Source: Candidatus Sumerlaeota bacterium | Lineage (GTDB): Bacteria > CG03 > SLGR01 | Length of the DNA: 9,854 nucleotides | Reading direction: 5' to 3' | NCBI GenBank assembly: GCA_007136585.1 | Contig: SLGR01000077.1 | Span: forward strand, 1-9,854 | In this document: positions 85 through 1,357 of the stretch, piece after piece | How the letters are laid out: each line of letters starts with the position of its first letter | How positions within the stretch are numbered: position 1 is the first letter of the stretch | Notes under the pieces: model-generated | Told to the model about the DNA's origin: nothing | The model's database searches: none | What the model saw: the letters and a program-made list of their open reading frames with translations, nothing else | Made by a program: the position numbers and the translations under genes

Positions 85-894
85 TCAGAAAAGAAATCCC
101 AGTATGCGGTCCAGTCTGAATACCCTTATCCCGGATACCCTCCGGCAGTAGGCCACCAGGTAAGTGTAATTTGAATAAGATACTATCTCCCGGGGGGCGG
201 CCTCCATCACGGCCTCAAGACCTTCACCGGTTACATACCTGAACCTTAGTATACCTCCAAGGCGGAGGGCCTCTTTTACCGGAAGGGGCACGCGGGAAAG
301 CTCGCATTCGGGTAAGAGAACGGTCCCGCCCTGGAGCTCAAGAAGCTCCTCCAGGGTCTCTGTGTTCTTATCCCTGGAAAGTATCCGGATAAAGTGGTTG
401 AGTATCTCCGCCGTTGCCCTCACATCGTCCATCGCCCTGTGGGCATTTTCTATCCTTATACCCAGCTGCCGGGCTATGCTACCCAGGGAGTTTCCGGTAA
501 AGCTGAAGTTTCTCCTTGCAAGCTTGAGGGTATCTACAACCGGGAAATCAACCCCGGGGGACACAGCCTTAAGCCCCGGGGCCAGGAACCTCAGGTCAAA
601 AGGGGCGTTATGAAATACCAGGACCGTTCCCCGGATAAAATCAAGGAGTTCCTCAGCTATCTCGTAAAACTCGGGTGCGGAAGCAACCATTGAGTTATCT
701 ATCCCGGTTATATCGGTTATCTTGGAAGGTATGGGTTTGAGCGGATTGATAAGGGACTGGAATGTTCCCGAGGGTTCTCCGTCTCTCATTTTAAGGGCCG
801 CCACCTCGGTTATCCTGTCCCCCATATGAGGGAAGAACCCGGTGGTCTCAAGGTCTATTACGGTAAACGGGGTCTCCCGCAGTAACTGCGCCAG
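85..894 (-). CDS. DnaQ-family 3'-5' exonuclease with C-terminal WYL-like domain
   Basis: Predicted DEDD-type 3'-5' exonuclease of the DnaQ / PolC epsilon-like group, about 269 residues from the proposed CTG start. Exo I is IDLETTG near residues 13-19 (acidic D and E). Exo II is FHNAPFD near 94-100. Exo III has H152 and D157 in HRAMDD. All catalytic acids are present, so it should be an active, metal-dependent cytoplasmic nuclease. Residues about 213-268 resemble a WYL ligand-binding domain: a short beta segment, APREIVSYSNYTYLVAYC, then RVFRLDRI. The first in-frame ATG (823-825) lies after Exo I and would delete two catalytic acids, so it cannot be the start. The frame is open back to a stop at 985-987, with no ATG, GTG or TTG in between. 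A CTG at 892-894 preceded by AAGGAG at six bases is the best choice. It lies 43 bases after rnk, probably co-transcribed. The substrate and the WYL ligand are unknown. Family assignment is firm; the start is uncertain. Confidence 0.85.
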   Translation of the reverse strand: MAQLLRETPFTVIDLETTGFFPHMGDRITEVAALKMRDGEPSGTFQSLINPLKPIPSKITDITGIDNSMVASAPEFYEIAEELLDFIRGTVLVFHNAPFDLRFLAPGLKAVSPGVDFPVVDTLKLARRNFSFTGNSLGSIARQLGIRIENAHRAMDDVRATAEILNHFIRILSRDKNTETLEELLELQGGTVLLPECELSRVPLPVKEALRLGGILRFRYVTGEGLEAVMEAAPREIVSYSNYTYLVAYCRRVSGIRVFRLDRILGFLF

Positions 895-937: not shown

Positions 938-1357
938 TCAGAGGTTGTAATTCCCGGATTTCTCGGGCTGGAAAAGAACTTCCTCTATCCTGAGATGACA
1001 TACCCCCCTGGGGACCGGCCACTCGATGAGATCACCCTCGGAGTACCCTAGAAGGGCGGTCCCTATGGGAGAGATTATGGAGATCTTTCCGGCGTCAACG
1101 TCGGCATCGTCTGGAAACACCACTGTATATACCAGTTCCTCCTCCGTATCAAGATCTGTCAGCCTGACAGTTGAGTTCATTGTGACCACCGTCCCGGGTA
1201 CCTCCCGGGGATCTACAACCTTTGCCCTGTCAAGCTCCTTCTTTAAATCCTTTATATAATCAGGAGCGCGGTAGGTAAACTCGTTTGCCACAATTGAGAG
1301 CCTCTTGAGCCTGTCAAGGTCAAACTGTGTTATGTATATATCTCTTTTTTTTGCCAT
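938..1357 (-). CDS. rnk: Rnk-like transcription elongation factor (GreA/GreB superfamily)
   Basis: A 139-residue protein matching Rnk (named 'regulator of nucleoside diphosphate kinase'), a GreA/GreB relative that binds RNA polymerase. The N-terminal region (about residues 8-50) is the short helical part that replaces the long Gre coiled coil. Residues about 55-136 form the FKBP-like domain, with VVTMNSTVRL (57-66), the ISPIGTALLG stretch (95-104) and the closing FQPEKSGNY (129-137). These follow the E. coli Rnk pattern VVTMNS / APVGAALLG / YQPEAAGDY closely. The length is typical of Rnk (about 136) and too short for GreA or GreB (about 158). The ATG start has GAGGT four bases upstream. In E. 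coli, Rnk lacks the acidic coiled-coil tip needed for transcript cleavage and is thought to compete with Gre factors for the secondary channel; the same is inferred here. It is the first gene before the exonuclease and is divergent from the LysE exporter. Confidence 0.9.
   Translation of the reverse strand: MAKKRDIYITQFDLDRLKRLSIVANEFTYRAPDYIKDLKKELDRAKVVDPREVPGTVVTMNSTVRLTDLDTEEELVYTVVFPDDADVDAGKISIISPIGTALLGYSEGDLIEWPVPRGVCHLRIEEVLFQPEKSGNYNL

Follow-up and report, generated by a model that had tools for sequence, protein, structure and literature searches.

This analysis revealed that the window, a stretch of 9,854 nucleotides from a Candidatus Sumerlaeota contig, encodes a small protein in which a DEDDh exonuclease domain is followed by a WYL domain. 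This architecture is real and is not unique to the window. Our preferred reading, for which we see about as much reason to believe as to doubt, is that the protein degrades single strands in the 3'-5' direction and uses its WYL barrel to hold or sense the strand that it trims, probably for DNA repair or clean-up. The features concerned are the following:

85 to 894, minus strand: gene for the exonuclease-WYL protein (269 residues and a stop codon), with a presumed start at CTG 894 behind AAGGAG
400 to 861, minus strand: DEDDh exonuclease domain (RNase_T), residues 12-165, Pfam 115.1 bits; PDB relatives PolC, DinG and epsilon
100 to 279, minus strand: WYL domain, residues 206-265, Pfam 44.4 bits; matches to PafC, Pif1 and DriD
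938 to 1357, minus strand: Rnk-type Gre-family gene directly upstream of the exonuclease-WYL gene; Pfam GreA_GreB and Rnk_N, and NCBIfam

With regard to the gene itself, the coordinates given in the preliminary description were right, and the strand can now be added: the frame runs from 894 to 85 on the minus strand, and the plus strand contains five stops over the same interval. The first ATG, GTG or TTG of the frame is found at 825, past motif I, and a start at this position would delete that motif. As none of these codons precedes motif I and a CTG lies at 894, six bases past AAGGAG, CTG 894 is the likely start; the 269-residue reading that begins there is plausible, not proven. Gene finders restricted to common start codons would truncate the exonuclease active site if translation starts at this CTG.

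The exonuclease domain was matched by the Pfam RNase_T profile far above chance (6.2e-33, cut-off 24 bits). Its catalytic residues are D14 and E16 in IDLETTG, D100 in FHNAPFD, and H152 and D157 in HRAMDD, all of which are invariant in an alignment of eight relatives. The DEDDh motif set is therefore complete, as had been described from the sequence at the outset, which places the protein among the DEDDh (DnaQ/RNase_T) exonucleases and predicts a 3'-5' activity. Sequence and fold searches of the PDB gave PolC, DinG, epsilon and ExoX as the best solved matches. The nearest of these by both sequence and fold, PolC, DinG and DnaQ, differ from the window protein in that no WYL domain accompanies their exonuclease domains, which belong to polymerases, helicases or subunits of the replicase.

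The C-terminal domain, which ends in YLVAYC...RVFRLDRI, was also matched by its Pfam profile far above chance (1.7e-11, cut-off 21.8 bits). The preliminary description had proposed this pairing of an exonuclease with a WYL domain and had suggested a search with both profiles; the Pfam profiles and the sequence matches in the PDB both show this assignment to be correct, and the predicted helix and five strands fit it. In the AlphaFold model of the full-length protein, a C-terminal helix is followed by five strands, with block pLDDT values of 76-88. An Sm-like barrel would have its elements in this order, which the model gives with moderate confidence. When the WYL domain was predicted in isolation, the pLDDT was 50. 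The matches listed by Foldseek and VIA-align concern the exonuclease domain, with no WYL chain among them, and are uninformative on the C-terminal domain. Among solved chains, the WYL profiles of the family found PafBC, PafC and Pif1 helicases first and then DriD; the WYL domains of PafC, Pif1 helicases and DriD proteins have been reported to bind single-stranded DNA. Since its closest relatives of solved structure bind ssDNA, single-stranded nucleic acid is favoured as the binding partner of this domain. A ligand bound there may set the activity of the enzyme.

In PafB, ssDNA binding was abolished by single or combined mutations of R181, Y196, R204, R208, R211 and R214, and R181A was sufficient by itself (PMC11804915). 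These residues were aligned to positions 230, 245, 253, 257, 260 and 263 of the window protein. Four of the six are kept in the window copy, namely Y245 and three of the five arginines (R257, R260 and R263); the two lost arginines are replaced by M230 and V253, the latter adjoined by R251 and R252. Among 26 relatives, position 230 is basic in 23, 253 in 16, 257 in 20, and 260 and 263 in 22 each, while position 245 is a tyrosine in 19 and position 250 a cysteine in 22; L003 and L006 are among the relatives with an arginine at 230. On these counts, ssDNA binding is likely for the exonuclease-WYL family and, given M230 and V253, less sure for the window copy. The PafBC and DriD regulators thus share with the window protein a related WYL domain and part of the ssDNA-binding arginine and tyrosine set. 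They are, however, HTH transcription factors, whereas the window protein lacks an HTH and is too short to accommodate a WCX domain.

In the mechanism that we propose, the PolC/DnaQ (DEDDh)-type domain would trim nucleotides off the 3' ends of single strands, with DNA as the most likely substrate, and the C-terminal WYL Sm-like barrel would hold or sense the same single strand, with ssDNA as its presumed ligand. The barrel could raise affinity or processivity, or could turn the activity up where single strands occur. We regard this as the most economical reading, given the presence of both domains, the complete motifs, the kinship of the WYL domain to ssDNA binders and the partly conserved DNA-binding residues. 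The retention of the PafB ssDNA-binding positions in most of the 26 relatives, some of which adjoin lexA or cinA, is consistent with it, as is the detection of no further RNase_T protein in the window genome, G001, G005 and G007. The protein probably has a role in DNA repair or clean-up. Counting against this reading are M230 and V253 in the window copy, the fact that lexA and cinA each adjoin one relative only, the failure to detect any RNase_T protein in G003, a genome of the same order, which means that the function is not essential, and the ability of DEDDh domains to act on DNA or RNA, between which the sequence does not decide.

If the substrate were RNA, the protein could be a 3'-5' exoribonuclease for RNA turnover, with a WYL barrel that binds RNA as Sm and Hfq barrels do. 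We consider this rather unlikely. Among solved WYL domains, those closest to this one bind ssDNA, the nearest exonuclease domains belong to the DNA enzymes PolC and DinG, and the genome has an NrnA-sized DHH protein, which may already cover short-RNA clean-up. These points weigh against several observations in its favour: the WYL fold resembles Hfq (PMC6789036), the Rnk-type gene adjoins, NrnA-like DHH and SpoU rRNA methylase genes flank the relative in genome G321, and Makarova et al., in the sentence that mentions it, name their WYL-fused enzyme an exoRNase (PMC4012209).

No RNase_T protein besides the window protein was detected in its genome (G000, 88% complete). The exonuclease-WYL protein likewise stands alone in G001, G005 and G007, and G002 has two RNase_T proteins, both of the exonuclease-WYL type. 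As the assemblies are incomplete, all such absences are provisional. A sole RNase_T match in four genomes, together with an exonuclease domain nearest to PolC, could point to a proofreading (epsilon-like) exonuclease of the replicase. This is nevertheless improbable. No RNase_T protein was detected in G003, a genome of the same order that is 94% complete. In the DnaE of the window genome, the motifs of the PHP metal site (HLH, TDH, GCE, HMTLLA, GC and NDCHY) are intact, as expected of a DnaE able to proofread itself, such as Mtb DnaE1 (PMC5636811), and proofreading therefore need not depend on the exonuclease-WYL protein, in which no clamp- or DnaE-binding region was identified. ExoVII is also present in the window genome, alongside the DHH protein. 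Returning to single-strand trimming, a bolder version can be put forward only tentatively: these proteins would form a widespread class of compact exonucleases, the sole DEDDh exonuclease in some genomes of the order, in which ssDNA binding by the WYL domain directly switches on the 3'-5' nuclease or makes it processive. If true, damage sensing and DNA degradation would be combined within one polypeptide.

With regard to the gene neighbourhood, the Rnk-type gene, which matches the NCBIfam nucleoside diphosphate kinase regulator family above cut-off, is likely to form one transcription unit with the exonuclease-WYL gene. A LysE-type gene is transcribed divergently from these two, and carAB, purA, purB and purN, named from their translations, lie farther off in the window. 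G002 shows the same succession of purB, rnk, exonuclease-WYL and CxxCxxCC gene; in G001, LysE-type and CxxCxxCC genes flank the exonuclease-WYL gene and rnk is missing. Among the neighbours examined outside the family, rnk was not seen beside any relative, and no gene recurred beside exonuclease-WYL outside the immediate family. The transcription-linked role that had been suggested from the adjacent rnk is thus weak: the adjacency holds in the window and in G002, but neither in G001 nor beyond the family. A G+C-rich hairpin is found at 1376-1401, between the divergent rnk and LysE-type genes and just before rnk. It has nine pairs on the minus strand, and seven followed by CTTTTT on the plus strand; it is possibly a terminator or a leader element. 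Rfam gave no family at threshold on the window and none for this hairpin.

Elsewhere, the neighbours include lexA (G005), cinA (G047) and the two RNA-related genes of G321, as well as genes for phosphoglycerate kinase, PrmC, cysteinyl-tRNA synthetase, GGDEF proteins and histidine kinases. All those examined have housekeeping, regulatory or repair functions. In G005, the exonuclease-WYL gene lies directly downstream of lexA (L104 2166-3734); a CACATT...AATGTG-type palindrome is present ahead of lexA only, and no LexA-type palindrome was seen by eye ahead of the exonuclease gene. The preliminary description had also raised a defence role. In that case, the WYL domain of a defence nuclease would detect phage nucleic acid or a nucleotide signal. 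Defence regulators with WYL domains are known according to the relevant text of Makarova et al. (PMC4012209), and PADLOC gave weak generic matches to WYL and DEDDh. However, no defence gene was found among the window genes or 20 scanned neighbours of relatives, so that the neighbours examined lend no support to this idea. In addition, within the family the gene keeps a syntenic setting that involves rnk, LysE-type and CxxCxxCC genes, and no phage record and one plasmid record covered 80% of the protein. We therefore regard a defence nuclease as very unlikely.

Most of the WYL proteins studied are transcription factors and, to our knowledge, WYL domains acting directly on an enzyme have been examined mainly in Pif1 helicases. 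E. coli Exonuclease I has an SH3-like barrel domain after its exonuclease domain. The DEDDh domain of this enzyme (1fxx, 4js4) aligns with that of the window protein with a Z of 18.9 over residues 7-190, and the title of entry 1fxx ties the structure to processivity. By analogy, the window protein may work roughly like this exonuclease with its SH3-like barrel. Nevertheless, WYL is a different family from that barrel, and neither the SH3-like nor the C-terminal domain of Exonuclease I gave a Pfam match in the 269 residues at E values up to 10. The Pif1-WYL helicases (PDB 8bnv, 8bns; PMC9964779), which are among the best WYL matches, likewise carry a C-terminal WYL domain on a nucleic-acid enzyme, with a helicase core in place of the exonuclease. 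The same domain pair as in the window protein, likened here from its description in the text, is listed by Makarova et al. 2014 in one sentence, which gives no functional test, as WYL fused to a 3'->5' exonuclease (PMC4012209). In the literature we found no experimental study of such a fusion, and nothing on it beyond that article. As the architecture is already on record, the gain is a test case and not a new kind of system: a two-domain exonuclease of 269 residues, present in many bacterial genomes, would be a simple system in which to ask whether a nuclease is tethered to ssDNA, or gated on it, by a WYL barrel.

A survey of the two-domain architecture, which the preliminary description had called for, covered 386 bacterial genomes and showed full-length relatives in 33 or more of them. 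This count is a lower bound, comprising the genomes in which a profile match spanned both domains and ended at profile position 255 or beyond. Up to three exonuclease-WYL copies occur in one genome (G112, G378). Among 61 genomes searched, full-length relatives from the same order show 49% (G001), 47% (G002) and 40% (G005, G007) identity, and those from other lineages 38-39%. The copy in G002, which belongs to the same family as the window, was also found as L032. Seven full-length relatives were scanned with Pfam: six score above the WYL cut-off, and L083 narrowly misses it. In G004 and G006, of the same order, the relatives are too short for a WYL domain. In a tree built from 88 exonuclease domains, those with a WYL domain clustered without forming one clade. 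A single origin of the fusion was sought and not recovered: the tree needs eight WYL gains or losses, at least three of them forced by supported branches. Repeated gain or loss of the WYL domain on this lineage is thus probable.

G002 contains a second, more distant exonuclease-WYL copy (L102 7312-8133), which adjoins a YgjP-like metallopeptidase gene. Finally, exonucleases in records of the Turneriella/Leptospira type (L060 589-1458, L061 5968-6837, L063 5953-6852 and L070 5980-6852) have a C-terminal tail of similar size. The three scanned, L060, L063 and L070, gave no Pfam WYL match, and alignment with all four tails is poor. By look the tails are faintly similar, and they may represent a diverged barrel.
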